Shown one piece after another: positions 2,121 to 55,278 of a stretch of 56,081 nt of DNA. The stretch is from positions 1-56,081 of the IMG/VR virus record IMGVR_UViG_3300007760_000615. One strand, given 5' to 3'. The notes beneath the pieces are model-generated. The model saw nothing but the letters and a program-made list of their open reading frames with translations, was not told the origin of the DNA and made no database searches. A program made the position numbers and the translations under genes. Origin of the DNA: a virus. Position 1 is the stretch's first letter; each line of letters opens with the position of its first letter.

Positions 2121-2435
2121 TTATCCTCCAGCAAAAACATTAGGTGAACCTTGAAACAATGCTCCTTGATCAGTTGAGTCACCAGCTCTTGCCACTGGTA
2201 TGCCTAGAGCAAATACTGAACTAGAACCCATATTAACTTTTGCTCGGTGAGGTAAACAACAAGGATATTTGCCACACCTCCTTAATATAGTATGTGGTAA
2301 ACAACGATCACCTGGTCTAAGAACTGCTATGCCATTTGCCACAACAGAACCTTGTGTTGCTATACATCCTATTTGGAATGTACAGGGGTGACCGGTTTTT
2401 GCTAGGTCTATTCGATCTCTGCTTATTGCTGGCAT
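2121..2435 (-). CDS. PAAR-domain spike-tip protein (T4 gp5.4-like)
   Basis: PAAR proteins form a small cone that caps the central baseplate spike and helps pierce the host envelope. The 104-aa protein has the typical length and pattern: repeated short Gly/Ala/Val motifs, His and Cys residues able to hold a metal (TGHPCTFQIGCIA, PGDRCLPHTILRRCG, CCLPHRAKV), and the ending PVARAGDSTDQG plus GSPNVFAGG. It starts 7 nt after a perfect TATAAATA, so its late mRNA should be nearly leaderless. The following 426-aa gene is coupled to it. Confidence 0.85.
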   Translation of the reverse strand: MPAISRDRIDLAKTGHPCTFQIGCIATQGSVVANGIAVLRPGDRCLPHTILRRCGKYPCCLPHRAKVNMGSSSVFALGIPVARAGDSTDQGALFQGSPNVFAGG

Positions 2436-2442
2436 AATGTAT

Positions 2443-2450
2443 TATTTATA
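2443..2450 (-). promoter_or_regulatory. T4-type late promoter (TATAAATA)
   Basis: A perfect T4 late consensus on the minus strand ends 7 nt before the PAAR start codon. With T4 geometry (+1 six nt past the last A) the leader would be about 2 nt. Confidence 0.75.
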
Positions 2451-2470
2451 GTAGTAGAAAACCGCTATTA

Positions 2471-4240
2471 TTATATCGGAAATAACGTTTTATCGTTCCT
2501 GGTCCATATTTCCCACCTACCTTTTTTTGAATATATAGGATTGCTATTATATGGAGCAATCATTTTATAAGACTTAACCCATTCACGACCAAACCATGTG
2601 GGAATATGTCTATTAACAGACAAAGATTTTTTATAGAAATCAAATAGTTCTTTATTTTTCTTTTCAGTTATCCAGTTGTGTGCAGGACTGTCCCATCCTG
2701 TTTTTCTTTTATCAATAATGTAGTTGGGTAATATATTTTTGTATGCTTTCCTAGGTAAACTTTTTCTAAGTTCTAAACTGTGTATTTTGTCTTTGCTTGG
2801 AATGGATAATGCATAATTCATAAAAAGTTTTGTAGCATAAGGAAATCGTGATTCAATAGAATTTGCCATTCCAAATTTATCAGCAAATCCAAAATATTCC
2901 TCTGATGCAAAACTTAGACATTCTAGACCTATAAAAGATGCACACACGTCATCAGGATTCCACAAGCTACTATCGTTATAAATTTTAATAAACTCTTCCA
3001 GCACATCTTGTTTAGTTGGTAAGTTTTGATCAATTGGTACAGGTTCTCTAATATAAGTTAATAATTCTTTATTAATTAATTCTTTCCAACTTTTAATATT
3101 TGATGATAATAACTTGTAATGATGTTTGTATCCACATAGCATTTCATCTCCTAGATCTCCTGTCAATGCTACAACAATACCTTTATTTTTCATATAATTG
3201 CTCATTTGGTAATAAGCAGGCATACTACAATTTAATATAGGTTCTTCATAATGATATACTGCTTTTAAAAAATTATCTTTATAATCTTTAGGAGTACACA
3301 AAACAGGATTCAAATTTAAATTAAAGTCTTTAGTAAATCTTTTTGCAGTATCAAAGTCAGAATGAAAATCTTCCCAATCATTTTCTATTAAAGGATCATA
3401 GTGATGTGTAAAACAATCCATGGAACCTAAGTGCTTTTTTGCTTCATATACCATTACACTTGAATCTAATCCTCCACTTAAAAATGAACCTATTTTTCTT
3501 CTTCCAATAGTAGTCATTTTAACAGTTTTACTCATTACATCTCTATATTCTTCAGGATCAAATTTATGATTTGAGGTAGGTTTCGTATAGATTCTATAAC
3601 TATTTTTTATTTTTTTATTTTCTATATCATAAACAATACTTTCTCCGGGTAGTACTTTTTTAATATTTGTAAAAAATGTATCACGTAATGGATTAACTCC
3701 AATAAGTTCTAACGATTTCATAGCAAATGGATTAATATTATGAGCATTGGGTACTTTGTTTATTAGTCCTTTTATTTCAGAACCAAATACTAATCCTTCT
3801 TTTATTTCTGCATAGTATACAGGTTTAATTCCTGCATGGTCTCTGCTTAATGTAATTTGTTTCTTCTTTGGTTCATAGTATGCAAAGCCATGCATAGAAT
3901 CTATTTCTTCTAAAAATGCTAGTCCAAATGTATCCAGTCCCCAAGCAAGTAGTTCGGTATCGCAACCTGTAGTATCTGTAAATTGTTTGTATTTTGTTTT
4001 AAGTTCGTAGTAATTAAAAATTTCACCATTATAAACAAGTGTGTTTCCTTTGGGAGTTATCCAAGGTTGCATTGATTGTTTTGGGTTTGCCATTATACTT
4101 AAAAGATTGTGTCCAAGTGTTACGTTATAATTTGGATCACACCAAACTTTGGATCCATCTGGACCTCGATAGTTACAAGTGTCTATATAATTTTGTATAA
4201 ATTTAGGATTATGATCAGTTATTCCGTATATTCCACACAT
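2471..4240 (-). CDS. asnB: Asparagine synthase (glutamine-hydrolysing)-like amidotransferase
   Basis: AsnB-type enzymes split glutamine and transfer ammonia to an adenylated carboxylate, classically aspartate to asparagine. This 589-aa protein is near full family length. It opens with the nucleophile Cys2 (MCGIYG), has the glutaminase-domain motifs RGPDG and YNGEIFNYYEL, and carries the PP-loop SGGLDSS at about residues 255-261 followed by GDLGDEMLCGY. All key motifs are intact. It starts 3 nt after the SDR stop, so it is probably in one operon with the SDR, the beta-helix protein and possibly more. AsnB-like enzymes in such settings also amidate sugars or peptides, so true asparagine synthesis is not assured. 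Confidence 0.9.
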   Translation of the reverse strand: MCGIYGITDHNPKFIQNYIDTCNYRGPDGSKVWCDPNYNVTLGHNLLSIMANPKQSMQPWITPKGNTLVYNGEIFNYYELKTKYKQFTDTTGCDTELLAWGLDTFGLAFLEEIDSMHGFAYYEPKKKQITLSRDHAGIKPVYYAEIKEGLVFGSEIKGLINKVPNAHNINPFAMKSLELIGVNPLRDTFFTNIKKVLPGESIVYDIENKKIKNSYRIYTKPTSNHKFDPEEYRDVMSKTVKMTTIGRRKIGSFLSGGLDSSVMVYEAKKHLGSMDCFTHHYDPLIENDWEDFHSDFDTAKRFTKDFNLNLNPVLCTPKDYKDNFLKAVYHYEEPILNCSMPAYYQMSNYMKNKGIVVALTGDLGDEMLCGYKHHYKLLSSNIKSWKELINKELLTYIREPVPIDQNLPTKQDVLEEFIKIYNDSSLWNPDDVCASFIGLECLSFASEEYFGFADKFGMANSIESRFPYATKLFMNYALSIPSKDKIHSLELRKSLPRKAYKNILPNYIIDKRKTGWDSPAHNWITEKKNKELFDFYKKSLSVNRHIPTWFGREWVKSYKMIAPYNSNPIYSKKGRWEIWTRNDKTLFPI

Positions 4241-4243
4241 AAG

Positions 4244-4918
4244 TTACCATGGTATAGAGTTGCCTTGCCAATCTATAAATGTTCCGTTCATTGATTCATC
4301 CATTTTGTTAATTGACTTTATTATATTTTCTGCTGTTTCTTCTGGTGATTGATCTGCATCGGCACCACCCATATCAGTTCGAGACCAACCAGGGTTAATA
4401 CAAGTAATAACAATGTTATCATTTTTCCAATCGACTGATAAACTTTTTGCCGCGGCATTCATTGCCGCTTTTGATGTTCTATATATTGTAAATTTTCCTC
4501 TGTGTCTATGCCAACCTATACTAGCCTTTTGTGCAGATACAAATACAATTTTTTTCTTTGTTCCTGCTAGTATATTATTTTTTAATTGATGTGTTAACAA
4601 TATAGGTCCTATAGCATTAGTCATTATTTCGTCTTGCCATATCTTAACATCTACTTTAGTTTCGTGATCATACGTAAACCTTCCAGCATTATTAATTAAT
4701 ATGTCAATAGGGGTGTCCCCAACGTTATTAGAAAACTCATAGATACTATTAGGATTTAATAAATCAAGTTTATAAATTTTAACATTAGGAAGTTTCTTTA
4801 ATTCTAAAACATTATTAATATTTCTTACTCCGGTAATAACATTATAACCTAATTTTGAAAATTGTTTAGCAAATTCTAGACCAAGACCTCTGTTTCCACC
4901 TGTAATTAAAACGTTCAT
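4244..4918 (-). CDS. Short-chain dehydrogenase/reductase (SDR)
   Basis: This is a 224-aa NAD(P)-dependent oxidoreductase of the classical SDR fold. The cofactor motif TGGNRGLGLEFAKQ is at residues 7-20, followed by NNAG, a catalytic Ser in VFVSAQKAS, the YRTSK Tyr-x-x-x-Lys pair, and the INPGW motif after the active site. It lies between a double-stranded beta-helix protein and AsnB with gaps of 8 and 3 nt, so the three likely act together. The substrate cannot be told from the sequence; a sugar or a small hydroxy compound are both possible. Confidence 0.88.
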   Translation of the reverse strand: MNVLITGGNRGLGLEFAKQFSKLGYNVITGVRNINNVLELKKLPNVKIYKLDLLNPNSIYEFSNNVGDTPIDILINNAGRFTYDHETKVDVKIWQDEIMTNAIGPILLTHQLKNNILAGTKKKIVFVSAQKASIGWHRHRGKFTIYRTSKAAMNAAAKSLSVDWKNDNIVITCINPGWSRTDMGGADADQSPEETAENIIKSINKMDESMNGTFIDWQGNSIPW

Positions 4919-4926
4919 ATTTTTAA

Positions 4927-5817
4927 TTAGTTACACCCATATGCTATTAAAACTTTTCGTGAGTTATTACTATCATTTACTACAGAATGTACGTAATCAC
5001 TAGTATTAACTAACAGTAAATTATCAAGAGGAACAAGTCCTGCTTCATTAAATTTAAAATATATATTTTTGTCGGAACTAAAACTATAATAAAGTTTTTT
5101 ACAACCTTTTTTATATGGCCAAAGATTTTTATTTGTGCTGTCATCGATATGTATTGGTATGTAACTAAAAGGATCTAAAGTAGCAATAAAAATATCTAAT
5201 ATACTTGTATAGCCAACTGTTTTAAAAAGTTTAATTGCATCATTGTTATCAATTTTATTAAAGTTAATAAGAGGAAGGTCTGCTCTTGGTTTTAATGTTT
5301 GGAAAGACCACCCAGGTTCAACGTTATCATTATATTTTAATTGTGATTCAAATTTACGTAACATTTCATTTTTATTAATTGTTGGTGTAGTAAAAATTTT
5401 ATAAGGGGGATTGTCTTTCCACCAATGTGGTCCGTTTGCATTTTTAAAAAATGAGTTAATACTTTCAGAATATAATTTACTTAACGTAATTGGTCTATCG
5501 ACAGTAAGCATATAGTTGTCATATAGTTCTTTATTAAAATCGTCACTGTTAATATCTTTCCTGCAACAAGAAATCATACATCCTAAATTTGTGTGTATCC
5601 AAATATGAAAAGAATTATTTTTAATGTAACCTGTGTGTATTAACTCTCCAATTGATTCGTTGTTAATTAATATATCATTTATTTGTATATTAGATGTAGT
5701 AAGTAAATACCAACCATCTAGTCCTGAAATTTTTGTATTATTTTTTGTATAGATTTTATATCCGTCGAGGGATTCTAAAGTAATATCAGTAATACCTGCT
5801 TGTATGGAAATGTACAT
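4927..5817 (-). CDS. Unknown protein with a double-stranded beta-helix (hydroxylase-like) C-terminus
   Basis: This is a 296-aa protein. The C-terminal third contains IPIHIDDSTN, giving an H-x-D pair, then a distal His in DYVHSVVND and an Arg in SRKVLIAYG. This order resembles Fe(II)/2-oxoglutarate or aspartyl-hydroxylase-type beta-helix enzymes. The N-terminal half is not recognised; it has many Asn/Ile residues and a CMISCC cysteine cluster. The gene starts 6 nt after the late element ATTAAATA and heads the SDR-asnB series. The hydroxylase assignment is tentative, because the metal ligands are inferred by spacing only. Confidence 0.6.
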   Translation of the reverse strand: MYISIQAGITDITLESLDGYKIYTKNNTKISGLDGWYLLTTSNIQINDILINNESIGELIHTGYIKNNSFHIWIHTNLGCMISCCRKDINSDDFNKELYDNYMLTVDRPITLSKLYSESINSFFKNANGPHWWKDNPPYKIFTTPTINKNEMLRKFESQLKYNDNVEPGWSFQTLKPRADLPLINFNKIDNNDAIKLFKTVGYTSILDIFIATLDPFSYIPIHIDDSTNKNLWPYKKGCKKLYYSFSSDKNIYFKFNEAGLVPLDNLLLVNTSDYVHSVVNDSNNSRKVLIAYGCN

Positions 5818-5823
5818 TAAAGG

Positions 5824-5831
5824 TATTTAAT
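5824..5831 (-). promoter_or_regulatory. T4-type late promoter (ATTAAATA)
   Basis: This minus-strand late element ends 6 nt before the ATG at 5817. The predicted leader is 1 nt. Confidence 0.65.
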
Positions 5832-5841
5832 AATAGAGATT

Positions 5842-6942
5842 TTACAGTTTGAATTTACTGAATTGATCCTTTTCAACGTCTTGTTTGATACCACCTACAA
5901 TGTAGGATTCAACTTCTGTTTCTTGTGGTGCTACTTGTAAGCCTTTAGAACTTAACCAGTGTGTAGTCCATGGTAATGGATTTTGATTTGCTGGAACATC
6001 GTATATTGGATCAAGGTTTAATGCTCGTAGTCTTTTATTTGCTATCCATTCTACATATCTAGAAAGTAGTCGTTCATTAAGTCCAATTATAGAGCCATCT
6101 TTAAAGAGATAGTTACACCATGCTTTTTCTTCCTCAACACATTTTTTCCACATTTTAATTACATCATCTTTGCATTCTTTTATAAGTGGTTTCATTTCTT
6201 TGTCATCACCATTCATCCAATTTTTAATAATGTGTGTTGTAATTGCTAGATGCTGAGATTCATCACGTGCTATTAATGAAAGTATTTTAGCAGAACCTTC
6301 CATAAGTTTAAGTTCACCAAACGCGAAAGTACAAGCAAATGAAACATAGAATCTTAATCCTTCTAGCATATTAACGTTTACCATTGCTAGATATAATTTT
6401 TTCTTTAATACTCTTGTTGATCCTTTGCCATTAACGTCCCATTGTTTTGCGTAATCAATAAAATCATCATAATGTTTTGTAACTGATGTTGCCCTTTTTA
6501 TTATTTCTTTGTCATCAATAATTTTATCAAGTACATCACTTGGATTAGCATAAACATTTTTCATAATATGTGTGTATGCTCTAGAGTGTATAGTTTCAAA
6601 AAAATCCCAAGTAACAATACAACTTTCTAATTCAGGTAGTGAACAATATGGTAAAAATGCAATTACTGGACCACGTCCTTGTACACTATCTAGTAGTGTT
6701 TGATATTTTAAATTAGATGTAAAAATGTGTTTTTGTTCTGGACGAAACTGTGCGTAATCTGATCTATCTTTTTGTAATGATACTTCTTCAGGTCTCCAAA
6801 AGTAACCTAGTTGTGTTTGTGTTAGTTTATCAAATACAGGATATTTAAAAGTGTCAAACCTTTGAACATTTTGATCGTCACCAAAAAACATTGGTTGTTT
6901 AGTGAAGTCTATATTAGACTGATTAAAAATAGTCTTACTCAT
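5842..6942 (-). CDS. nrdB: Ribonucleotide reductase class Ia, small (radical) subunit
   Basis: NrdB holds the diiron-tyrosyl radical that NrdA uses to reduce ribonucleoside diphosphates for DNA synthesis. At 366 aa it is of normal length. Diiron and radical residues are visible in LLDSVQGR (Asp), WDFFETIHSRAYTHI (Glu, His and the radical Tyr) and ARDESQHLAITTHI (Glu, His). It lies 20 nt after nrdA, with a late-type ATTAAATA element between the genes. It can therefore be transcribed with nrdA or alone. The C-terminal tail, which normally docks on NrdA, ends FSKFKL. Confidence 0.96.
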   Translation of the reverse strand: MSKTIFNQSNIDFTKQPMFFGDDQNVQRFDTFKYPVFDKLTQTQLGYFWRPEEVSLQKDRSDYAQFRPEQKHIFTSNLKYQTLLDSVQGRGPVIAFLPYCSLPELESCIVTWDFFETIHSRAYTHIMKNVYANPSDVLDKIIDDKEIIKRATSVTKHYDDFIDYAKQWDVNGKGSTRVLKKKLYLAMVNVNMLEGLRFYVSFACTFAFGELKLMEGSAKILSLIARDESQHLAITTHIIKNWMNGDDKEMKPLIKECKDDVIKMWKKCVEEEKAWCNYLFKDGSIIGLNERLLSRYVEWIANKRLRALNLDPIYDVPANQNPLPWTTHWLSSKGLQVAPQETEVESYIVGGIKQDVEKDQFSKFKL

Positions 6943-6950
6943 TATAGTTG

Positions 6951-6958
6951 TATTTAAT
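6951..6958 (-). promoter_or_regulatory. T4-type late promoter (ATTAAATA) between nrdA and nrdB
   Basis: This minus-strand element ends 8 nt before the nrdB ATG at 6942. It would give nrdB its own late transcript with a leader of about 3 nt. Confidence 0.6.
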
Positions 6959-6962
6959 TATA

Positions 6963-11153: not shown

Positions 11154-11161
11154 ATTACACT

Positions 11162-11169
11162 TATTTATT
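11162..11169 (-). promoter_or_regulatory. T4-type late promoter (AATAAATA)
   Basis: The minus-strand element ends 8 nt before the tail-protein ATG at 11153. The predicted leader is about 3 nt. Confidence 0.65.
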
Positions 11170-11872: not shown

Positions 11873-11886
11873 TATTGTATTTTATA

Positions 11887-13173
11887 TTATGCTAGGTGCT
11901 CTGTCAATGATTGTTCTAGCTCTGGCAGTAATTTTCGCCACGTTTTATTTTTTCTGTGGTTATCTTGTGTGTCATTATATCTAATAAATGATTGTTGTAG
12001 GTTTTGTTCTTCACTTGTATTTAGAAAATCTCCTCTTAAATTTTCTATTTGTTTGTTATAAAAGTTTGATATAGATTTGTATGTACTAAAATATTCTATA
12101 CTTTTTTCAAGTTTCTTAGCTACTTGTAATCTATATTGTTTTGGTGCAGTATCATAATTGCAAATACGAGGATACCAAACTTGAGACATCCATGATACAT
12201 TAAATTGTTTGCCCCAATTACCGTCAGCAAAATCTATAAACCATTTTAGCATATCATCTAATTGATGAATGTTTAATAATTGTATAGCAGGACTAAACAT
12301 TATTTTTCCATTACCACTTTCTAGTACAAGTTTTTTATAAAAATTTAAATTTTCAACTACTTTTTTAAAGCTACTAGGATATCTAATGTACTCGGTTATG
12401 TCTCCAAGACCATCTATACTTGCCCATATCGTCCAGTTCTTCATTTTTGGAAACCATTGTGTCATTTTAGGATTGGTATTAGTAAGATTAGTTACTATCG
12501 TTATGTCTTTATTTTTTAGTGTATCTTTATCGTCACAATAATCTAGTAATGCATAGAACTCTGGTATAACTGTTGGTTCACCACCAATAATAGTTAAGTG
12601 TGTGATATGTTTGCTTATATAATCTATAAGTTTATTTTTAGTTTTTTCATTTTGAAACCATGTGTATTCTACTGATAGATTGTTAGTCCAATTATTAACA
12701 TTGCCACTTTGTTTGTATACCCAATTTAAAAATTCTTTATCGTTTTTTCCTATTTCTAATAATTCTTTTCCTATTTGATTTGAATAGTCTTGTCCACACA
12801 TTTTACATTTTAGATTACACATATTACCAAAGTGTAGTTCCATTGAGTGTGGCATTATATCTATAGATCCATCGGTTTTAACTTTGTTTAAATTTTTTTC
12901 TTGACTGATTTCCTTACGCATAGATTTGTAACCACGTGCTTCTTGATCAACACATTTTGAACAGGCTTTCAACTGTTCTCCGTTTTTCATTTTAAGTCTT
13001 ACTTGTTTCATGTATTCATTATTCCATATTTTTTGTAATGAATCATTATTCATATGTACTCTATTGCCTTTTTTATCTGTAACATTTTCCATAGTGGCAC
13101 AACATAATCTTACAGAACCAGACATATGAACATATTGATGTTCGAAAGGAAAATCACAGTAAGTTTTACTCAT
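11887..13173 (-). CDS. Radical SAM protein with N-terminal twitch-like Cys region (rSAM-1)
   Basis: Radical SAM enzymes use a 4Fe-4S cluster to cleave S-adenosylmethionine and start radical chemistry. The protein (428 aa) begins with a Cys-containing domain (YCDFPF, RLCCATMENV, ACSKCVDQEARG) like the twitch/SPASM-type auxiliary region. The cluster motif CNLKCKMC follows at residues 119-126, with glycine-rich GGEPTV downstream. I use ATG 13173 because it overlaps the stop of rSAM-2 as ATGA, a coupling signal. It has the same architecture as rSAM-3 at 29029. The substrate is unknown. Confidence 0.85.
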   Translation of the reverse strand: MSKTYCDFPFEHQYVHMSGSVRLCCATMENVTDKKGNRVHMNNDSLQKIWNNEYMKQVRLKMKNGEQLKACSKCVDQEARGYKSMRKEISQEKNLNKVKTDGSIDIMPHSMELHFGNMCNLKCKMCGQDYSNQIGKELLEIGKNDKEFLNWVYKQSGNVNNWTNNLSVEYTWFQNEKTKNKLIDYISKHITHLTIIGGEPTVIPEFYALLDYCDDKDTLKNKDITIVTNLTNTNPKMTQWFPKMKNWTIWASIDGLGDITEYIRYPSSFKKVVENLNFYKKLVLESGNGKIMFSPAIQLLNIHQLDDMLKWFIDFADGNWGKQFNVSWMSQVWYPRICNYDTAPKQYRLQVAKKLEKSIEYFSTYKSISNFYNKQIENLRGDFLNTSEEQNLQQSFIRYNDTQDNHRKNKTWRKLLPELEQSLTEHLA

Positions 13174-15417: not shown

Positions 15418-15425
15418 TATTTAGT
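15418..15425 (-). promoter_or_regulatory. T4-type late promoter (ACTAAATA), predicted leaderless
   Basis: The minus-strand element ends exactly 5 nt before ATG 15412. With T4 geometry, +1 is the A of the start codon. Confidence 0.65.
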
Positions 15426-18992: not shown

Positions 18993-19000
18993 TATTTATA
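18993..19000 (-). promoter_or_regulatory. T4-type late promoter (TATAAATA), predicted leaderless
   Basis: A perfect consensus on the minus strand. With T4 geometry, +1 falls on the A of ATG 18987. It lies between divergent genes, 6 bp from the plus-strand ATG at 19006. Confidence 0.75.
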
Positions 19001-21563: not shown

Positions 21564-21571
21564 TATTTAAG
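21564..21571 (-). promoter_or_regulatory. T4-type late promoter (CTTAAATA)
   Basis: The minus-strand element ends 6 nt before ATG 21557. The predicted leader is 1 nt. Confidence 0.6.
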
Positions 21572-22681: not shown

Positions 22682-22689
22682 TATTTAAG
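22682..22689 (-). promoter_or_regulatory. T4-type late promoter (CTTAAATA), predicted leaderless
   Basis: The minus-strand element ends 5 nt before ATG 22676. It lies directly beyond the terminator of the ferritin-like gene. Confidence 0.62.
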
Positions 22690-23480: not shown

Positions 23481-23488
23481 TATTTACC
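23481..23488 (-). promoter_or_regulatory. T4-type late promoter (GGTAAATA), leadered
   Basis: The minus-strand element lies 41 nt before ATG 23439. The leader would contain the Shine-Dalgarno AAAGGAG. Confidence 0.58.
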
Positions 23489-28560: not shown

Positions 28561-28568
28561 ATTAAATA
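28561..28568 (+). promoter_or_regulatory. T4-type late promoter (ATTAAATA), plus strand, predicted leaderless
   Basis: The element ends exactly 5 nt before ATG 28574. It shows that the late-promoter spacing rule holds on the plus strand too. Confidence 0.65.
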
Positions 28569-30188: not shown

Positions 30189-30196
30189 TATTTAAT
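30189..30196 (-). promoter_or_regulatory. T4-type late promoter (ATTAAATA), predicted leaderless
   Basis: The minus-strand element ends 5 nt before ATG 30183 of rSAM-3. Confidence 0.65.
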
Positions 30197-30732: not shown

Positions 30733-30761
30733 TTGACAATTTAAAAAAAATAACATATAAT
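30733..30761 (+). promoter_or_regulatory. Perfect-consensus sigma70 promoter
   Basis: TTGACA (30733-30738), a 17-bp spacer, and TATAAT (30756-30761). The ATG follows 7 nt after the -10 box, so the transcript should be leaderless or nearly so. Confidence 0.85.
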
Positions 30762-30768: not shown

Positions 30769-31416
30769 ATGGCTTACCATAATGCAAATATACCTGTCAT
30801 TGAATGTTATGTTCGCGGAAACTATTTGCGAGATCAAAAAGATTCATTTGACAAATATTTTGAATGTAGAGTATTTGGCGTCATGAGCTTACCAGGACAG
30901 GTTCCGTTATTTCATTTTATGATGGAAGACGGAGGTTTATGGTGGAAGGCTCCTATCTCTGCATTTTGTAAAAAAGAAGGTGTAAAAGAACTGCCTTTAA
31001 ATGAATTAATGTTGTGGGATTCATTTAGTTATAATATATCAGTCACAACTTTTTTCCATTTAGCAGATATTAAAATGACTTACTTCTCAAGACGTAAAGT
31101 AAAAAGGTCAGGCAAATATTTGTTTACATTAGATTGGACAATAGGAGACTTTAATGAATTAAACTTTGGCTATGCAGATGTACCAGGCCAACATAAGTGT
31201 GGACACGTTATTGAATTAGATGATGGTAATTATGCAATCCAACCTAATAATAGATTAAAAGTATTTGAAACAGAATTTATAGATAAGCCAGATGAAAATA
31301 TTATAGACCGTTTAGTTAATACACACAAATACTCTGTTGAGTCAGGTGAAAAATGGATAGTCACAGAAAAAGAACAAGGTAGTTTTGATTATGATATTGA
31401 AGAAACTAAAGAGTAA
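30769..31416 (+). CDS. Unknown 215-aa early protein
   Basis: A soluble beta-rich protein starting MAYHNANIPVIECYVRGNYL, with an acidic end (SFDYDIEETKE). No motif is recognised. It has the strongest-looking promoter in the window and almost no leader. rSAM-4 follows 8 nt downstream in the same transcript. Early high expression suggests a host-takeover role, but no target is suggested by the sequence. Confidence 0.7.
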   Translation: MAYHNANIPVIECYVRGNYLRDQKDSFDKYFECRVFGVMSLPGQVPLFHFMMEDGGLWWKAPISAFCKKEGVKELPLNELMLWDSFSYNISVTTFFHLADIKMTYFSRRKVKRSGKYLFTLDWTIGDFNELNFGYADVPGQHKCGHVIELDDGNYAIQPNNRLKVFETEFIDKPDENIIDRLVNTHKYSVESGEKWIVTEKEQGSFDYDIEETKE

Positions 31417-31424
31417 ATATATGC

Positions 31425-32753: not shown

Positions 32754-33905
32754 TTATTTACCATAGTAAACAACATTATCAGCTTTAGGATATGTTCTCC
32801 ATGGATCAAATATGATAGTATTATGATCAGCTTCTACGATATCTGTTTCATGCACTCGTACGATAACATCAATGTTTTCGTTATATCTATTAATTGCTAT
32901 ACTATCTATAATAGATCCACCGTGCCATACGATCCAATGTTGTACAAGCAACGAATAAGAGCCATCAATTAATGTTGTATTAGGCTTGTAAGTATCTGAT
33001 GTAAAGTGTATGTTTTTACCGTGCTTTAGTATTGCAAGTGCCATGTTTTCTGCTTGTCGTTCTCTTGTAGTCATTATAGATGCAAATGGATCGTAGCCTA
33101 ATTTAAGTTCTTTAGCCAACCAACGTAAAGCAATATTATCTCGTGGATGACAAGCACCACCATCTCCCATACCTGCTTTCATATATGCTGAGCTATTAAT
33201 TCTTTGTGTACTTTTTGCTAATGCTTTGGTAACAACATCAACATTCATATTGCCTAGTTGTCCAGCAACATCTTGTATCATATTAACAAATGCAATTTTG
33301 CTACTGATAAAAGTATTGTAAAATATTTTAATTGCTTCTGCTTCTTCCCATGTACCAAATTCAACACGTGGATTGTTATTACAAACCATTGTATAAAAGT
33401 TTAATAAATTTTGTGCTCTAGTGGCAGTAGCTTTAACGCCTTTCATTGTTCCAACAATAATCATTTCAGGATTCATCATATCCCAACCTACAGATCCCAT
33501 AGCTATTAGATAGGGATTATAAATTAGTTTTGTATTAGTAACTAGTGGAGCAAGTTCTCTTCTAATAGTTCCTGGTAATACTGTTGATATCAATGCAAGA
33601 GTTTGTTTTTGTCTAACATATTTGTTGCACTCTGTTAAAACTTCTTTTACTGAATCGTAGTTAAAATCTTTAGGAGGAAGATGGCTTGTAGGTGTTCGTC
33701 CATCATATCCTTCTTCGTGTGGAGTAGGTGTTGCAACAAATATAATATCTGATTGTTCAACTACTTCCTGTATTGAATCTTTTATATCTACCTTTGTACT
33801 TTGTTTAGGCAGTATATCATATCCATTTACATGATAGCCTTTGTCAACAGTTGCTTCTGCACAAGGCATACCTAGTTTACCTAATCCTATAAATCCTATT
33901 AACAT
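32754..33905 (-). CDS. UDP-glucose/GDP-mannose dehydrogenase family protein
   Basis: These NAD-dependent enzymes oxidise a nucleotide-sugar twice to a uronic acid. The 383-aa protein has the Rossmann motif GFIGLGKLGMPCAEA, VATPTPHEE, STVLPGT, the catalytic-loop KIFYNTFISSKIAF and the nucleophile Cys in GGACHPRDN. A C-terminal nucleotide-sugar binding domain follows. It overlaps the glycosyltransferase-like gene by 7 nt, last in an operon with a DegT-type aminotransferase. This set fits amino-uronic sugar synthesis for a surface or virion glycan, which is inference. Confidence 0.9.
   Translation of the reverse strand: MLIGFIGLGKLGMPCAEATVDKGYHVNGYDILPKQSTKVDIKDSIQEVVEQSDIIFVATPTPHEEGYDGRTPTSHLPPKDFNYDSVKEVLTECNKYVRQKQTLALISTVLPGTIRRELAPLVTNTKLIYNPYLIAMGSVGWDMMNPEMIIVGTMKGVKATATRAQNLLNFYTMVCNNNPRVEFGTWEEAEAIKIFYNTFISSKIAFVNMIQDVAGQLGNMNVDVVTKALAKSTQRINSSAYMKAGMGDGGACHPRDNIALRWLAKELKLGYDPFASIMTTRERQAENMALAILKHGKNIHFTSDTYKPNTTLIDGSYSLLVQHWIVWHGGSIIDSIAINRYNENIDVIVRVHETDIVEADHNTIIFDPWRTYPKADNVVYYGK
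32755..32762 (-). promoter_or_regulatory. T4-type late promoter (GGTAAATA), leadered
   Basis: The minus-strand element overlaps the stop of the dehydrogenase gene. It would give a ~21-nt leader with AGGAG. Confidence 0.58.
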
Positions 33906-36335: not shown

Positions 36336-36343
36336 TATTTACT
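36336..36343 (-). promoter_or_regulatory. T4-type late promoter (AGTAAATA)
   Basis: The minus-strand element ends 8 nt before ATG 36327. The predicted leader is about 3 nt. Confidence 0.58.
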
Positions 36344-36493: not shown

Positions 36494-36501
36494 AATAAAT
36501 A
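36494..36501 (+). promoter_or_regulatory. T4-type late promoter (AATAAATA), plus strand, predicted leaderless
   Basis: The element ends exactly 5 nt before ATG 36507. Confidence 0.65.
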
Positions 36502-48922: not shown

Positions 48923-49025
48923 ATTTATTGAAATAGGAATTAAGGCAATTTTATTCGTGATATGTACGATTTATGTATTATGGGTGACAGATACAATTCA
49001 TATTATGATGGGATGGCCATACTAG
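48903..49025 (+). CDS. 40-aa membrane microprotein
   Basis: MKKIMTRFIEIGIKAILFVI then CTIYVLWVTDTIHIMM; one helix with a basic start. ATG 48915 is an alternative start. The stop touches promoter P6. Confidence 0.5.
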   Translation: MKKIMTRFIEIGIKAILFVICTIYVLWVTDTIHIMMGWPY

Positions 49026-49026
49026 G

Positions 49027-49054
49027 TTGACGATATAGAAAGATATGCTAAAAT
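49027..49054 (+). promoter_or_regulatory. Early promoter of the GGTTGAC family (P6)
   Basis: TTGACG (49027-49032), a 16-bp spacer and TAAAAT (49049-49054). Confidence 0.78.
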
Positions 49055-49075
49055 TAATAATAATGAAAGGTTGAT

Positions 49076-49926: not shown

Positions 49927-50243
49927 TGGATAAAGGTAAACCAGAACCAGGTAAAGAATATGCTTTAACAGGCAAGACAGGCGACAAATGTATTGCGAAT
50001 GGAAATACTTGGGCAGAATCAGAAGTTAAAAAACCTAAGATGAGAACATTTAGAGTGACATCATATGAAACTTGTCATTTTGAACAGATTGTAAAGGTTC
50101 CAGAAGTTTATACTGATGGAGAATATGATCAAGGAGAGACTGAAGGTAAAGCAATTGAAAAAGCAGGAGAGATTGGAGATTGGGGAAATGCTGAATATGG
50201 AGAAGTTCAGGATCAAGAAGCACAGGAAATAAATGGGAACTAG
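49926..50243 (+). CDS. Unknown 105-aa acidic early protein
   Basis: MDKGKPEPGKEYALTGKTGD, with KMRTFRVTSYETCHFEQIVK and an acidic Glu/Gln-rich end. TAATG start after the strong GGGGGGAG. Confidence 0.58.
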   Translation: MDKGKPEPGKEYALTGKTGDKCIANGNTWAESEVKKPKMRTFRVTSYETCHFEQIVKVPEVYTDGEYDQGETEGKAIEKAGEIGDWGNAEYGEVQDQEAQEINGN

Positions 50244-50340
50244 ATTAAAAGATATTATATTTGATAAGCACGAAGATCTTTTATATGAAGATGAAAGAGC
50301 TAATCACGAGCAAGACAGAATTAATAAAGGAGAAATATAA
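50233..50340 (+). CDS. 35-aa microprotein related to the duplicated tail
   Basis: MGTRLKDIIFDKHEDLLYED ending ERANHEQDRINKGEI, a diverged form of the ERANHIAKSQDRGEM tail. It overlaps the previous gene by 11 nt and the next by TAATG. Confidence 0.5.
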   Translation: MGTRLKDIIFDKHEDLLYEDERANHEQDRINKGEI

Positions 50341-50513
50341 TGACTAGAACATTAATATTAATATCATTACTAGCAGGATTCGTACTAGCATTCTTAGGAG
50401 TCATTATTATGATTCACTCAGGTGAAGTATGGTTAGGACTTGGAATTACTTTAGTAGGATTCTATGCAGTAATAAGAGCGACACACAGAACGGTTGATTC
50501 AAGTTATGATTAA
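50340..50513 (+). CDS. 57-aa membrane microprotein with two helices
   Basis: MTRTLILISLLAGFVLAFLG, then VWLGLGITLVGFYAVIRATH. Two short helices. TAATG start, overlap with the next gene. Confidence 0.58.
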   Translation: MTRTLILISLLAGFVLAFLGVIIMIHSGEVWLGLGITLVGFYAVIRATHRTVDSSYD

Positions 50514-50778
50514 AAGTTGGGAAGAAGCAAAAAAAGTAGATGACAAGATTGAAAAGACGAAGAAAAGACCATTGCCATTTCCTTGTATAGTTTTAGAACA
50601 TCCAGAAGAGATTACTAATAAATTTTCAGGCGAGAAAGTTATGTTAGAACCAGATGCGGTTGCGGTTTATGATACTATTAAAGGAGCAGAATTGCTTGGC
50701 AACGATGACCATCTTAGAAAAGGCTTAGATTGGTTTATCAAATATGAACCAGAAGCCTATATGAAATTATTAGACTAA
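50506..50778 (+). CDS. Unknown 90-aa early protein
   Basis: ATG 50506 overlaps the previous stop. MIKSWEEAKKVDDKIEKTKK, then PLPFPCIVLEHPEEITNKFS. Soluble. TAATG with the next gene. Confidence 0.57.
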   Translation: MIKSWEEAKKVDDKIEKTKKRPLPFPCIVLEHPEEITNKFSGEKVMLEPDAVAVYDTIKGAELLGNDDHLRKGLDWFIKYEPEAYMKLLD

Positions 50779-50912
50779 TGGATGCCTTTATTTTATTTGT
50801 AATATTACCCGTACTAGGATATGGAATTTATTATGTTAAAGAAAACGACTTCTTCCAATTTATGATTGGATACATTAAGAAGAGAATAGGAGAAAAGAAA
50901 GATGGAAGTTAA
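50778..50912 (+). CDS. 44-aa membrane microprotein
   Basis: MDAFILFVILPVLGYGIYYV then a basic tail (GYIKKRIGEKKDGS). One helix at the N-terminus. Overlaps the next gene by 11 nt. Confidence 0.52.
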   Translation: MDAFILFVILPVLGYGIYYVKENDFFQFMIGYIKKRIGEKKDGS

Positions 50913-51477
50913 TAGATACTTAATTAGATTGACGAAGTGGACACTCTTGGCACTTGCCATAGTAGTGACATTATCAATAGTCGCAAAGGCTGAAGTAAAT
51001 TCAGGATATGAAGATGCATTTGACCAATATGGCCAAGATGCAGGTATGATGGATTATGATGGACGAAATCCAGGCGAAGATAAACGATGTCTGAAATATG
51101 AAGATTGTCCTGAATGGGATGGTAATCCAGATACGAAAGTTTATTTCGATTTAATGAAATTAAGCAACGGCACAGGTGTCATTGCTAAATCAGATTTCAA
51201 TTGGAATGTTCATTTATATACCTGTCATATTAATAAGGAATTAGATAGCATTAATGGTGAAGGAGCATTTGAAAGGTTGGCAATCTTGTCAGCAAAAAAC
51301 GGAATGATACCTTGTCCAATTAATGTTAATCCACATTGGACTTATGATTGGGAATTACATATATTGAAAGCAAGATTAACAAGACTTACAAAGTTATGGC
51401 CTAGATCATATGACCCAGGACCAATGGCTCCAAGTGGACAACAAGGTTTGACAAATTCAACCGATATGGTTGAGTAG
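50902..51477 (+). CDS. Secreted 191-aa early protein
   Basis: A signal peptide (KWTLLALAIVVTLSIVAKA) with likely cleavage before EVNSGY. The mature protein has four Cys (RCLKYEDCPEW, YTCHINKE, IPCPINVN), probably two disulfides, and a Trp-rich part. A periplasmic function is likely. No family is recognised. Confidence 0.65.
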   Translation: MEVNRYLIRLTKWTLLALAIVVTLSIVAKAEVNSGYEDAFDQYGQDAGMMDYDGRNPGEDKRCLKYEDCPEWDGNPDTKVYFDLMKLSNGTGVIAKSDFNWNVHLYTCHINKELDSINGEGAFERLAILSAKNGMIPCPINVNPHWTYDWELHILKARLTRLTKLWPRSYDPGPMAPSGQQGLTNSTDMVE

Positions 51478-51488
51478 AAGGGAAAGTT

Positions 51489-51758
51489 ATGTTCAAATAT
51501 CTTTCTAACACGATGAAGATGACATTGATAGCTGGAATTCTATTTTTCGGATTGGCAGTTAGCTCTAAATCAGAACCGTTATCTATCGACCAGATCAAAA
51601 ATGTACCTGGTAAGGTAGTAGGTTTTATTGAGAGAGAAGTTGCTAAAACAAAGGAATATCAGACAGCGAACAAAAACGAAATGAAGTATCAGATTAAAGA
51701 TACGAAAGAAGATCTTAAAGATCTATTCGCTTCTATTAAAAGTCTTTTCATTAAGTAA
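51489..51758 (+). CDS. Secreted helical early protein
   Basis: 89 aa, a signal-like start (MKMTLIAGILFFGLAVSSKS) and a charged helical rest with FIEREVAKTKEYQ. Paralogue of the 103-aa protein at 46402. Last gene of the P6 unit, followed by a bidirectional terminator. Confidence 0.62.
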   Translation: MFKYLSNTMKMTLIAGILFFGLAVSSKSEPLSIDQIKNVPGKVVGFIEREVAKTKEYQTANKNEMKYQIKDTKEDLKDLFASIKSLFIK

Positions 51759-51761
51759 AAA

Positions 51762-51786
51762 CAGAATTCTTCGGTAAACGAAGAAT
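51762..51786 (-). terminator. Terminator for the convergent minus-strand gene
   Basis: ATTCTTCG (51766-51773) pairs with CGAAGAAT (51779-51786); read on the minus strand, CTGTTTTTA follows. Confidence 0.68.
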
Positions 51787-51790
51787 ATAG

Positions 51791-51836
51791 ACAGGCGGAG
51801 TACCTTTCATTTCATTTCAACTACTTCGCCTGTTTT
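51791..51836 (+). terminator. Terminator of the P6 early unit
   Basis: ACAGGCGGAGTA (51791-51802) pairs with TACTTCGCCTGT (51822-51833), with one G-U pair, followed by TTTT. Confidence 0.75.
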
Positions 51837-51859
51837 CATGAACAGGAAAGGAATTAAAA

Positions 51860-52156
51860 TTATTCAGGTATGAGAGTTAGAGCTTCTTGCATCAATGTTT
51901 CGCACTCTTCATTTCTGCCAGTTAGTCTTAAAGATACCGCTTCATCTCTTTTTGTCAAAGCAGATGCCTTATCTTCATCACTAGCAGATGTGATTGCTAA
52001 TAGTCTGTCATATTCAGTTAATTCATCTTCACATTTACCATCATCGGCTAATACCGCTTTTGATTGGGCATCAGATCCTTTGGTAAAATCAACTTCGACA
52101 GCCCAAGCAGGCGATAAGAACATAAGAAATATTAATGTCAATAAAAGTTGTTTCAT
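51860..52156 (-). CDS. Secreted 98-aa late protein
   Basis: ATG 52156 lies exactly 5 nt after the late element GGTAAATA, which decides the start over one at 52171. A signal peptide (MKQLLLTLIFLMFLSPAWA) is followed by an acidic helical part with two Cys (GKCEDELTEY, NEECETLMQEA). It is the only late gene inside the early region. A periplasmic role, perhaps in lysis, is possible but not shown. Confidence 0.7.
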   Translation of the reverse strand: MKQLLLTLIFLMFLSPAWAVEVDFTKGSDAQSKAVLADDGKCEDELTEYDRLLAITSASDEDKASALTKRDEAVSLRLTGRNEECETLMQEALTLIPE

Positions 52157-52161
52157 ACTAC

Positions 52162-52169
52162 TATTTACC
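52162..52169 (-). promoter_or_regulatory. T4-type late promoter (GGTAAATA), predicted leaderless
   Basis: The minus-strand element ends 5 nt before ATG 52156. Confidence 0.65.
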
Positions 52170-52218
52170 AAATATAGTCATATTACCAGAATACCATACC
52201 CGTTTTTTCCGTATTCGG

Positions 52219-52246
52219 TTGACTTTTTTAGGAAAGGTATTATAAT
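52219..52246 (+). promoter_or_regulatory. Early promoter of the GGTTGAC family (P7)
   Basis: TTGACT (52219-52224), a 16-bp spacer and TATAAT (52241-52246). The spacer sequence differs from P2, P3 and P5. Confidence 0.82.
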
Positions 52247-52272
52247 AAAAGAACAATGAGGGAGGAAAATAA

Positions 52273-53355
52273 TTGAAAAAATACATTAAAATCGAGCAAG
52301 GTTCATATCGTGGTAAAGATATGTCTGGTCGTATATTTCCTATCCTTAAAGATTATCAAAAATTTGGCGGCGGAAAAGAAGGTGGCTTTGTCACGGTAGA
52401 TACTACTGAATTGGCAGGTTTCACTGAGAAGGAAAAGGTACGAATTAATGTTCCAGGGATCAGCAGTTTAACGATAGTTCAAGAAGGACAATATATCACT
52501 CACAGAGACGAACTAAAACAAGATGCCAAAACAGATTCAAATAAAGAAACAGATGAAGAAGCAATAGAAAGAATAGGAAATAGATTTGCCATTCTAGATG
52601 AGATGGCTGAAGCAGTTGCGACAAGTAAAGTTAGAGCAATGATAGTATCCGGCCCTCCAGGGATAGGTAAATCATATGGAGTTGAGAAAGCACTTGAAAA
52701 ACAAAATATGTTTCAAGACATAGCAGGCGATAAAAGAAAATTTGAAATGGTTAAAGGTGCGATGAGTGCCATAGGTTTATATAAAAAGCTCTACGAATTT
52801 AAAGACAAAGGTTGTGTTTGTTGTTTTGATGACTGTGACGCAATTCTTTATGACGACTTGGCTTTGAACTTGCTTAAGGCGGCCTTAGATACAACGCCTA
52901 AGAGATCTTTGCACTGGAACACAGAATCTAGAACATTACAGAACGAAGGTATGCCTAATTCATTTGAATTCTCAGGTGGAGTTATTTTTATTACCAATAT
53001 CAAGTTTGATAATGTTAAATCTAAAAAATTACAAGATCACCTAGCGGCATTACAAAGTAGATGTCACTATTTAGACCTAACGATTGATAGTATGAGAGAT
53101 CGTATGTTAAGAATTAGACAAATATGTGGTATAGGTATGCTTAAGAAATATGCTATGCCAAAAGAAACAGAAGAAGAATTAATCCAATTCATTTATAATC
53201 ATAAACATAAATTAAGAGAGATATCATTGAGAATGGTATTAAAGATAGCAGACTTATGGAAGATGGCACCAGACAAGTATCAGCAGTTGGCAGAACAGAC
53301 TTGTATGAAGCCTGAACGAGAATTATACGACTTACGAACAGGAGCAAGATTATGA
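52273..53355 (+). CDS. AAA-family ATPase
   Basis: A 360-aa ATPase. Walker A GPPGIGKS is at residues 127-134, Walker B CCFDDCDAI comes later, and a sensor-like Asn is in FITNIKFDN. The first ~100 residues are a beta-rich domain with no recognised match, then a helical linker. It starts with TTG 52273, 8 nt after a strong GGGAGG; no ATG is near. An early motor or remodelling role on DNA or protein is likely from the family; the partner is unknown. Confidence 0.87.
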   Translation: MKKYIKIEQGSYRGKDMSGRIFPILKDYQKFGGGKEGGFVTVDTTELAGFTEKEKVRINVPGISSLTIVQEGQYITHRDELKQDAKTDSNKETDEEAIERIGNRFAILDEMAEAVATSKVRAMIVSGPPGIGKSYGVEKALEKQNMFQDIAGDKRKFEMVKGAMSAIGLYKKLYEFKDKGCVCCFDDCDAILYDDLALNLLKAALDTTPKRSLHWNTESRTLQNEGMPNSFEFSGGVIFITNIKFDNVKSKKLQDHLAALQSRCHYLDLTIDSMRDRMLRIRQICGIGMLKKYAMPKETEEELIQFIYNHKHKLREISLRMVLKIADLWKMAPDKYQQLAEQTCMKPERELYDLRTGARL

Positions 53356-53513
53356 TACACGATTTAGGCTTCTTCGCTGAAATAACTTGGGCTCTTTTTC
53401 CTTATCTGTTAATCGTAGCAGTTGTCGTAGCGACAGGATGGATGATAATAACAATGATTCCTACTTGGATTAAACGATGGAAAGAATTAGGCGATGATTG
53501 GTGGTCAAAATAA
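53352..53513 (+). CDS. 53-aa membrane microprotein
   Basis: MIHDLGFFAEITWALFPYLL, then IVAVVVATGWMIITMIPTWI; a Trp-rich tail ends KELGDDWWSK. ATGA overlap with the ATPase gene. Confidence 0.58.
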   Translation: MIHDLGFFAEITWALFPYLLIVAVVVATGWMIITMIPTWIKRWKELGDDWWSK

Positions 53514-53514
53514 G

Positions 53515-53619
53515 ATGGAAGTTCTAACCTTTATATTCATTTCAAATGATGCTTGGATATGGTGGTTAGCAGGTATATTTGGATTCAACTTATGGTTATG
53601 GACTAAAAAAAATGACTAA
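53515..53619 (+). CDS. 34-aa membrane microprotein
   Basis: MEVLTFIFISNDAWIWWLAG then IFGFNLWLWTKKND; one Trp-rich helix. It begins 1 nt after the previous stop and overlaps the next start. Confidence 0.48.
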   Translation: MEVLTFIFISNDAWIWWLAGIFGFNLWLWTKKND

Positions 53620-53737
53620 GACTTTACTCATAATATTATTGATAGGTTTCTTTGTATTGGTTTATCTTGGTTATCGTAAGATTAATCGTAAATTAGAAGC
53701 ACTAATTAGATTGAATAATAGGAAGTATAAACAATGA
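53612..53737 (+). CDS. 41-aa membrane microprotein
   Basis: MTKTLLIILLIGFFVLVYLG, then a basic tail (YRKINRKLEALIRLNNRK). ATGA overlap with the next gene. Confidence 0.53.
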   Translation: MTKTLLIILLIGFFVLVYLGYRKINRKLEALIRLNNRKYKQ

Positions 53738-53856
53738 AAGATTGGTTATTATATATCAGCACTAAAATATTTCAATTCAGAAGTGTATTGACATTGTTAG
53801 GCGTTATCCTTATAATAATAATATATTTGATGTTAAGATTTAAAGGAGTTATATGA
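53734..53856 (+). CDS. 40-aa membrane microprotein
   Basis: MKDWLLYISTKIFQFRSVLT, then LLGVILIIIIYLMLRFKGVI. One strong helix. ATGA overlap with the glucosaminidase gene. Confidence 0.53.
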   Translation: MKDWLLYISTKIFQFRSVLTLLGVILIIIIYLMLRFKGVI

Positions 53857-54521
53857 GAAAAGAAAATAAAAAAGGAAGATTTAGAATAGGTAACTTATAT
53901 CAAGGGTTATGGTTTGCATTAATCATAATGGGAATGGTAGGAGCGTCATATTTGTTTGGCCAGTACCATCCTAATAAGAAAACGATACAAGAATTACAAG
54001 AATTATTTCATAAAGCAGAATTAAATGAAGCGACATCACTAGGGTTAGTTCAACCAGAGTTTATGTATAGTGACGCCAACTCATTCGTAGTTGCCACAGG
54101 TAAATGTGTAGATTATTTGAACTTCACAACCGACAGAAGAAGCAGAGTACCTACATCTATTATCATAGCAATGGCAGGGATTGAATCAGGATGGGGAACA
54201 AGCAGATTCTCACTAGAAGGCAATAACTTATTTGGCATACGGACTTGGGACTTGAAGAAACCACATATGAAGCCTAAGGAAGTTCCAGATGCGAAATTTG
54301 GCCTTAAGATGTATGCCACAAAGTGTGATTCAATAAAAGATATGATTAGAATCCTTAATACTCATACAGCCTATACAGATTTTAGAGTAGAACGAAGCAG
54401 TCAGATCAAAAACGGTAAGTGGAATTATCCTAGGTTGATATCATTGCTAAATCGTTGGAGTACCAACCCAGATTACGGTAAAATCATATTAAGAACCATT
54501 AAAGAAAGAGAATTACCATAG
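53853..54521 (+). CDS. Membrane-anchored glucosaminidase-domain peptidoglycan hydrolase
   Basis: A 222-aa protein with one N-terminal membrane helix (residues ~17-37) and a glucosaminidase domain of the Bax/FlgJ type. SIIIAMAGIESGWGTSRFS places the catalytic Glu near residue 111, with NNLFGIRTW and KMYATKCDSIKDMIRILN after it. It should cleave glycan strands from the periplasmic side of the inner membrane. Like the SleB-type enzyme it is in an early operon. It is flanked by membrane microproteins. Confidence 0.85.
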   Translation: MRKENKKGRFRIGNLYQGLWFALIIMGMVGASYLFGQYHPNKKTIQELQELFHKAELNEATSLGLVQPEFMYSDANSFVVATGKCVDYLNFTTDRRSRVPTSIIIAMAGIESGWGTSRFSLEGNNLFGIRTWDLKKPHMKPKEVPDAKFGLKMYATKCDSIKDMIRILNTHTAYTDFRVERSSQIKNGKWNYPRLISLLNRWSTNPDYGKIILRTIKERELP

Positions 54522-54610
54522 TGAAATTTTATATCTATATTACAATATTTTTAGTCTGTGTGATAGCATTCTTTTGGATGTTATGGTTGCAAGGGACACC
54601 AGTTCAATGA
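54521..54610 (+). CDS. 29-aa membrane microprotein (GTG start)
   Basis: (M)KFYIYITIFLVCVIAFFWML then WLQGTPVQ. GTG overlaps the previous TAG by one base; the end overlaps the next ATG as ATGA. Confidence 0.45.
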   Translation: MKFYIYITIFLVCVIAFFWMLWLQGTPVQ

Positions 54611-54681
54611 CAGGATTTTTAGTCTTTGCAACGGTATTCACATTGTTAGTATTACTCACAGGAATGCCTCCCAGAATTTAA
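54607..54681 (+). CDS. 24-aa membrane microprotein
   Basis: MTGFLVFATVFTLLVLLTGM then PPRI. It is the last and shortest of the membrane series. Support is the ATGA overlap only. Confidence 0.4.
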   Translation: MTGFLVFATVFTLLVLLTGMPPRI

Positions 54682-54683
54682 GA

Positions 54684-54712
54684 ATTCTTACTGGACCTCC
54701 CTTCAGTAGAAT
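54684..54712 (+). terminator. Hairpin at the end of the early operon
   Basis: ATTCTTACTG (54684-54693) pairs with CAGTAGAAT (54704-54712) with one bulged T. No long T-run follows, so it may be a weak or factor-dependent terminator or a processing site. Confidence 0.5.
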
Positions 54713-55078
54713 AGCATAGGATCAGCAGTTAATTCAGTTGGTCCTATTGCCTTGATTATAATAGACATTGTAGACACCTCCCCTCTTACGGTAAGACAGA
54801 GCTCCTGCCCGAGTGACCCGAAGCAGATGCGCCGCGATTTTTTTCGTCGAGCGACCTTGGCCGGAGGCCCGGCGTACGATATTTTTTGACCAGGCTCTCC
54901 TTAGCCTAATCGTCTTATAAGTTCTATTGTTCTACACCTTTAGGCTATCGCCATTTAAGGTATCCCAAGCAGGCTAGCCCGCCTGCTGTCTCTTTGAGTT
55001 CGAACAATTAGTACGGTAGACTAGAGTAATGAGTAGATGCATCTACTCTTCTGTCACAATATGCAATTATGATGGAGA
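54713..55078. other. GC-richer non-coding stretch
   Basis: No convincing gene on either strand. Base composition shifts to higher GC around 54780-55000 (for example GGCCGGAGGCCCGGCG), unlike the coding parts. Two GC-rich blocks are each followed by T-runs (54838-54844 and 54891-54896), as in terminators or structured RNAs. It contains an 18-bp palindrome at 55031. Confidence 0.6.
55031..55048. repeat. 18-bp perfect palindrome
   Basis: GAGTAGATGCATCTACTC reads the same on both strands. It lies just downstream of the small late gene at 55079-55264 and could be a protein-binding site or hairpin. Confidence 0.75.
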
Positions 55079-55264
55079 TTAAATTAGGATGATGTATAGT
55101 CCTATAATGAAACAAGCTAGAACAATATACCTTATAATGGAACAGACTGGACAGAATAGATGTAGCTTGGCAAGGTGATTGCTAATGGCAGACGGTGCGG
55201 GGTTATCCGTATCCTTTATTTCCGGCTCCTTGTTATACTGAGCTCGTTCTCTCTCTGTTGGCAT
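55079..55264 (-). CDS. 61-aa late membrane protein
   Basis: MPTERERAQYNKEPEIKDTD, a soluble Pro/Asn-rich part, two Cys (LFCPVCSII), and a C-terminal membrane helix (YIVLACFIIGLYIILI). The late element ATTAAATA ends 6 nt before its ATG, strong support that this is a real gene in an otherwise non-coding area. A C-terminal anchor fits a tail-anchored lysis or envelope protein, but that is inference. Confidence 0.65.
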   Translation of the reverse strand: MPTERERAQYNKEPEIKDTDNPAPSAISNHLAKLHLFCPVCSIIRYIVLACFIIGLYIILI

Positions 55265-55270
55265 TGTGAG

Positions 55271-55278
55271 TATTTAAT
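55271..55278 (-). promoter_or_regulatory. T4-type late promoter (ATTAAATA)
   Basis: The minus-strand element ends 6 nt before ATG 55264. The predicted leader is 1 nt. Confidence 0.62.

Follow-up and report, generated by a model that had tools for sequence, protein, structure and literature searches.

The subject of this report is a 56-kb record of an ocean virus from IMG/VR (IMGVR_UViG_3300007760_000615; the whole stretch of 56,081 nt, referred to below as the window, has an AT content of 67%), in which the candidate late-promoter hexamer TAAATA stands at a short, nearly fixed distance before start codons. We consider it very probable that in T4-type phages of SAR11 bacteria, a highly abundant group and the probable hosts of the window and its relatives, late messenger RNAs (mRNAs) are leaderless or have a leader of 0–3 nt, with the start codon set by the late promoter. 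The elements, their spacing and the conservation of that spacing are evident in the window and its relatives.

In the mechanism that we propose, the NNTAAATA elements would be T4-type late promoters, from which the phage RNA polymerase complex would initiate six nt beyond the final A of TAAATA. Selection would keep the ATG at +1, corresponding to a gap of 5 nt, or up to three bases downstream (gaps of 6–8 nt). The resulting late mRNA would start with a 5' AUG or with a leader of 1–3 nt, too short for a ribosome-binding site, and the 5'-terminal AUG would be recognised by ribosomes, probably 70S, or by 30S with IF2 and fMet-tRNA; it is from this geometry that we infer leaderless translation. 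Late genes with the promoter 15–42 nt upstream would be translated from Shine-Dalgarno (SD) leaders.

Element spacing in the window

The gap is the number of nucleotides between the last A of TAAATA and the start codon. Open reading frames (ORFs) were called mechanically, an ATG enters the gap counts only if it opens an ORF of at least 60 codons, and P-values assume independent sites. The element matches a TATAAATA-like octamer (N-A/T-TAAATA), with TAAATA as its core, ATAATTA as a minor variant and the first two positions loose. The same looseness at the first two positions is reported for late promoters of RB49 and KVP40 (PMC1524935).

Fifteen of the 43 TAAATA copies in the window stand at gaps of 5–8 nt before such an ATG, against 0.61 expected (Poisson P 2e-16), and eight have a gap of exactly 5, against 0.15 expected (P 6e-12). 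There is no TAAATA at gaps 0–4 or 9–11, and one at gap 12. Among ~184,000 hexamer-distance pairs in the window, TAAATA at 5 ranks first for enrichment (log10 P -11.2), and rearranging its letters gives 14 other hexamers, none of which has a spacing effect there. When each upstream 45-mer is shuffled with dinucleotides preserved (500 trials), the maxima are 3 elements at gap 5 and 6 at gaps 5–8; the real first-ATG starts have 7 and 14. Among TAAATA and its one-letter variants, TAATTA ranks next for enrichment at gap 5 in the clade to which the window belongs (16 vs 1.6). Overall, TAAATA is scarce: its 43 copies compare with ~127 expected from shuffles and with 88–201 for each of the other permutations of the same letters. 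Depletion specific to this hexamer suggests that stray late promoters are selected against.

A first-pass annotation of the window had placed seven starts at gap 5 (15412, 18987, 22676, 28574, 30183, 36507 and 52156), three at gap 6 (5817, 21557 and 55264) and several others at 7–8 nt. All are as it described, the last group comprising 2435 at gap 7 and 6942, 11153 and 36327 at gap 8. Its gap-5 list was incomplete, however: 31425 (+ strand) and the variant TAATTA-N5-ATG at 4918 (- strand) had been missed.

Recurrence in relatives and the transcription start

The excess at gap 5 recurs in sister contigs of the window. Observed and expected counts are 8/0.15 in the window, 9/0.16 in G001 (84 kb), 9/0.21 in G002 (93 kb), 9/0.40 in G006 (138 kb) and 12/0.66 in HTVC008M, a cultured phage of Candidatus Pelagibacter ubique. 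In HTVC008M, whose protein matching the window has only 40% identity, TAAATA at 5 is independently the top hexamer-distance pair. Comparison with related genomes and with shuffled sequence, which the first-pass annotation had put forward as a check, favours its rule, as the shuffles never approach the observed counts. In addition, 29 loci sharing one window gene (protein 85–100% identical) contain 94 TAAATA copies with a gap of 5 and 29 with a gap of 6. The 29-locus, per-genome gap-5, start-codon and SD counts are given without de-duplication, and some clade sites are counted twice, since the end of G002 is shared with G006 (100% over the query protein). Counts of ortholog spacing, initiator bases, sigma70-type promoters, and gp23 loci and gp3 of HTVC008M-type phages were de-duplicated by sequence.

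Gap 5 is kept in 22/22, 17/17 and 11/12 distinct orthologs of genes 18987, 22676 and 28574 while the five spacer letters vary, whereas in orthologs of the leadered gene 23439 the distance is anywhere from 26 to 41 nt. Genes with a nearby ATG thus hold the length constant, and those with a leader leave it free to vary.

The gap-5 genes of HTVC008M are gp2, gp3, gp25 (start codon uncertain), gp48, a baseplate protein and the tape measure, mostly in the form TAAATAGTANY-ATG. The same gap precedes gp2 in a 177-kb contig and in Melnitz, and gp3 in the 177-kb contig. HTVC008M gp4 likewise has gap 5 at its annotated start, but this start is uncertain (orthologs begin 12–14 codons later), and the case was left uncounted as insecure. 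With that start, gp2 and gp4 are divergent, their ATGs 26 bp apart with two back-to-back elements (NC_020484, 18914–18945); an interval of 26 bp holding two late elements would be too short to fit an SD leader.

In 80 metagenome loci around gp23 of the HTVC008M type, the counts are 67 at gap 5, 3 at gap 4 and 0 at gap 6, followed by a broad hump at 15–35. Gap 5 is found in 37 of 59 distinct gp3 orthologs from HTVC008M-type phages; for gp23, gp18 and gp19 of these phages, the commonest distances listed include no gap-5 cases. In HTVC008M and its kin, leaderless mRNAs apparently serve only some late genes, low-copy ones such as gp2 and gp3, where the contrast of low and high copy is drawn from T4 stoichiometry in the literature.

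We also considered gap-5 spacing as a general T4-like trait and rejected it, since there is no peak in RB49 or the cyanophages Syn9, P-SSM4 and S-PRM1 and only a weak one in T4 (3 vs 0.77). These five phages have only a distant hump, with elements ~15–40 nt upstream of the ATG. Melnitz, a phage of OM43, has an intermediate profile with one or few gap-5 genes.

The position of +1, which the first-pass annotation had carried over from T4 as six nt past the last A, can be approached from two sides. The T4 TATAAATA octamer spans -13 to -6 (PMC1524935), which puts +1 six positions beyond the last A. Among the clade's leadered late promoters, 83% have a purine at position 6 and 67% an A, versus 51% and 32% for TAAATA far from starts. 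Because leadered promoters have no ATG at position 6, this reading of the initiator is independent of the start codon. The purine share is 82% versus 56% in cyanophages and 69% in T4/RB49, with the same peak position. At gap-7 and gap-8 sites it is 92% and 85%; +1 thus seems to be fixed, with the leader longer by 2–3 nt. Initiation usually takes place at a step from a pyrimidine at -1 to a purine at +1, and at gap-5 sites position 5 is a pyrimidine in 96% while position 6 is the A of the ATG. Base composition therefore supports a predicted +1 at position 6 after TAAATA, in agreement with the first-pass annotation.

Translation signals and competing explanations

By gap, 78 clade genes fall at 5–8, 11 at 9–14 and 37 at 15–42. 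An SD motif is present in the leader of 29 of the 37 genes at 15–42 and in none of the 78 at 5–8. Clade genes at gap 5 start with ATG in 44 cases (1.16 expected), with GTG in 3 (0.51) and with TTG in 0 (0.68). Leaderless initiation prefers AUG, and the dominance of ATG is in keeping with this preference.

In a 400-kb stretch of a SAR11 (Pelagibacteraceae) genome, the SD signal is 11% versus 8% at internal ATG controls, compared with 30–50% in the phages; the phages thus add SD-type starts to a host whose own genes make hardly any use of them. Genes for ribosomal protein S21 are found in relatives with the leaderless spacing, namely HTVC008M, Melnitz, G003, G002, G008 and, weakly, G001, but not in T4 or Syn9. 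S21, which is located near the anti-SD, may affect the choice of initiation mode. A domain search of these phages returned no IF3_C or eIF-1a-type (IF1) domain.

Promoters of the sigma70 type can have the same placement. In the clade (window, G001, G002 and G006–G008), TTGACA-N16..18-TATAAT promoters peak 5–7 nt before ATG (21 of 146 motifs); HTVC008M, G003, Melnitz, T4 and cyanophages have no such peak. Leaderless initiation in the clade thus appears to be broader than the late programme, a strictly late-specific spacing rule is ruled out, and leaderless mRNAs are predicted from non-late promoters too. Host sigma70 spacing was considered as the cause and not adopted: the 400-kb SAR11 stretch contains a hint only (13 -10-like hexamers at gap 6), and full promoters there have no clear peak.

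The claim that late mRNAs begin at the ATG survives as the best reading in the form leaderless or near-leaderless, with gaps 6–8 implying leaders of 1–3 nt. The first-pass framing has to be widened beyond late promoters, as sigma70-type promoters of the clade share the spacing, and the rule is not universal, as some late genes keep SD leaders of 15–42 nt.

Several observations weigh against leaderless initiation set by the late promoter. Genes at gaps 6–8 are not strictly leaderless, and the lack of SD motifs at gaps 5–8 follows in part from the spacing itself. Orthologs are not independent observations, and G002/G006 sites are partly double-counted. Longer transcripts from upstream promoters could run across these genes. 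Finally, profiles from eight genomes found no gp55, gp33, gp45 or gp23 in the window clade, whose contigs are incomplete, so that gp55-type sigma use there is deduced from the element.

One competing explanation accepts a real late promoter but has initiation further upstream, or the relevant transcripts arising from earlier promoters; the spacing would be a product of compaction and the mRNAs would be leadered. Genes are tightly packed, and divergent phages could choose other start sites. Compaction, however, predicts a spread of short gaps rather than a spike at 5 with none at 0–4 (67 versus 3 and 0 at the gp23 loci). Given also the coexistence of leadered genes with free spacing, and the fact that leadered promoters of these phages, of cyanophages and of T4/RB49 all have their initiator purine peak at position 6, we regard this explanation as improbable. 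That TAAATA-N5 acts in translation, as an AU-rich standby or S1-binding site, and is not a promoter is less probable still. AU-rich sequence beside start codons can aid ribosome binding, and SAR11 genes are almost without SD motifs, but the same element also occurs 15–42 nt upstream with an SD motif in between. The element agrees with the T4-type late promoter already known and precedes orthologs of T4 late genes, other AT hexamers lack the peak, and the depletion of TAAATA elsewhere (43 vs ~127) is as expected for an active promoter. Even the 67% AT of the window and the flexible choice of ATG leave hardly any weight for chance, or AT-richness plus start-codon choice, as the source of the fixed spacing: base rates, the all-hexamer scan, same-letter permutations and shuffles refute chance, and the gap-5 spacing repeats independently in HTVC008M and the 80 metagenome loci, with no peak in equally AT-rich T4.

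More tentatively, and with rather low confidence, leaderless initiation set by the late promoter can be extended to two modes hard-wired in one promoter. The gap would assign a gene to leaderless initiation (low-copy gp2, gp3, gp25 and tape measure) or to an SD leader (high-copy gp23, gp18 and gp19), and phage S21 may set the balance in an SD-poor host.

Known systems, host and feature list

T4-type late transcription, with its leaders and ribosome-binding sites, is textbook knowledge. The elements described here resemble T4-type late promoters (gp55/gp33/gp45; T4, RB49, KVP40 and cyanophages) in the element itself, the lack of a conserved -35, the position-6 purine and their place before T4 late-gene orthologs; they differ in that leaders in T4 and RB49 usually carry SD motifs, with the element ~15–40 nt from the ATG. 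Many middle and late mRNAs of the lytic Thermus phage phiYS40 are leaderless (review PMC3594737), but phage and host are unrelated to those considered here, there is no fixed T4-type late-promoter spacing, and that phage shifts IF2/IF3 levels. In Deinococcus-Thermus, a -10 element ~6–7 bp before the start codon yields leaderless mRNA (PMC12340547); this is the geometry of the clade's sigma70-type promoters, although in host genes of another phylum and with no phage late sigma.

Among pelagimyophages (HTVC008M, Mosig) and the OM43 phage Melnitz, the gap-5 architecture is common to HTVC008M, its metagenome kin and one or few Melnitz genes. According to published work, the cyanophage method fails to predict late promoters in pelagimyophages (PMC7029224), which the near-ATG spacing would explain, and 15 late promoters have been published for Melnitz, their spacing unremarked (PMC9004378). 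Within the library of papers searched, no report connects TATAAATA late promoters with leaderless mRNA. What appears to be new is the start codon fixed on a T4-type late +1; leaderless phage transcripts and -10 elements abutting ORFs were already known. The spacing offers a simple rule for annotating start codons and promoters, and HTVC008M with its cultured host Candidatus Pelagibacter ubique allows a direct test. The spacing also raises the question of how SAR11 ribosomes, whose host genes are nearly SD-free, choose between leaderless and SD messages during infection.

The label 'T4-like' in the first-pass annotation is loose for the window, where a search with 34 profiles found no T4 core gene besides nrdA; the sister contig G006 has a T4-type DNA polymerase gp43 (2e-120) and baseplate-wedge PHROG matches. 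From these few genes, the clade appears to be a large lineage rich in auxiliary metabolic genes and akin to T4-type marine phages. A profile search found no capsid genes in its incomplete contigs; gp55, gp33 and gp45 are present in HTVC008M and G003. Virion genes preceded by the element include phrog_14154, phrog_11854, PAAR and tail-spike-like genes in the window, and gp2, gp3, gp25, gp48 and tape measure in HTVC008M. The DnaK of G002 shares 79% identity with SAR11 DnaK, and nearly all of its best 50 matches are from Pelagibacteraceae; thus, SAR11 is the likely host of the clade. The lineage (G002, 60–93 kb; G006) encodes DnaK, DnaJ, Hsp20, a ClpX-like ATPase, SufB, ThyX, a TonB-dependent-receptor plug domain and several radical SAM proteins.

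Table 1. Candidate promoter elements in the window, with gap to the start codon and ortholog spacing
Element	Position (strand)	Gap	ATG	Gene or product	Orthologs and remarks
TAAATA	2443..2448 (-)	7	2435	PAAR-type protein, 2121-2435	3/4 at gap 5
TAATTA (variant)	4924..4929 (-)	5	4918	gene 4244-4918	
TAAATA	5824..5829 (-)	6	5817	gene 4927-5817	
TAAATA	6951..6956 (-)	8	6942	ribonucleotide reductase small subunit	kept in 2/5
TAAATA	11162..11167 (-)	8	11153	tail-spike-like protein	at 8, 7, 6
TTGACA-N17-TAAAAT (sigma70-type)	11879..11907 (-)	6	11872	exonuclease	
TAAATA	15418..15423 (-)	5	15412	virion structural protein, phrog_14154	7 at 5, 4 at 7, 3 at 8
TAAATA	18993..18998 (-)	5	18987		22/22 distinct at gap 5; element marks this ATG as start, not upstream TTG 19011
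TAAATA	21564..21569 (-)	6	21557	virion structural protein, phrog_11854	15 at 6, 2 at 5, 1 at 7, 3 at 8
TAAATA	22682..22687 (-)	5	22676		17/17 distinct at gap 5
TAAATA	23481..23486 (-)	41	23439	leadered contrast	26-41 nt; Shine-Dalgarno motif AAAAGGAG
TAAATA	28563..28568 (+)	5	28574		11/12 at gap 5
TAAATA	30189..30194 (-)	5	30183	radical SAM family	no ortholog aligned
TTGACA-N17-TATAAT (sigma70-type)	30733..30761 (+)	7	30769	ferredoxin-like	leaderless spacing without TAAATA
TAAATA	31414..31419 (+)	5	31425	radical SAM family	two close orthologs at gap 5
TAAATA	32755..32760 (-)	26	32728	leadered contrast	AGGAG
TAAATA	36336..36341 (-)	8	36327		3/3 at gap 8
TAAATA	36496..36501 (+)	5	36507		2/2 at gap 5
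TAAATA	52162..52167 (-)	5	52156		single ortholog at gap 8
TAAATA	55271..55276 (-)	6	55264	doubtful gene	no orthologs found

The ORF at 55264 lies in the gene-poor, GC-richer end of the window, with no orthologs found, and may not be a real gene. This right end (54700–56081) has a GC content of ~42%, no clear ORFs and repeated short words (GGTAGG/GGTAATG).

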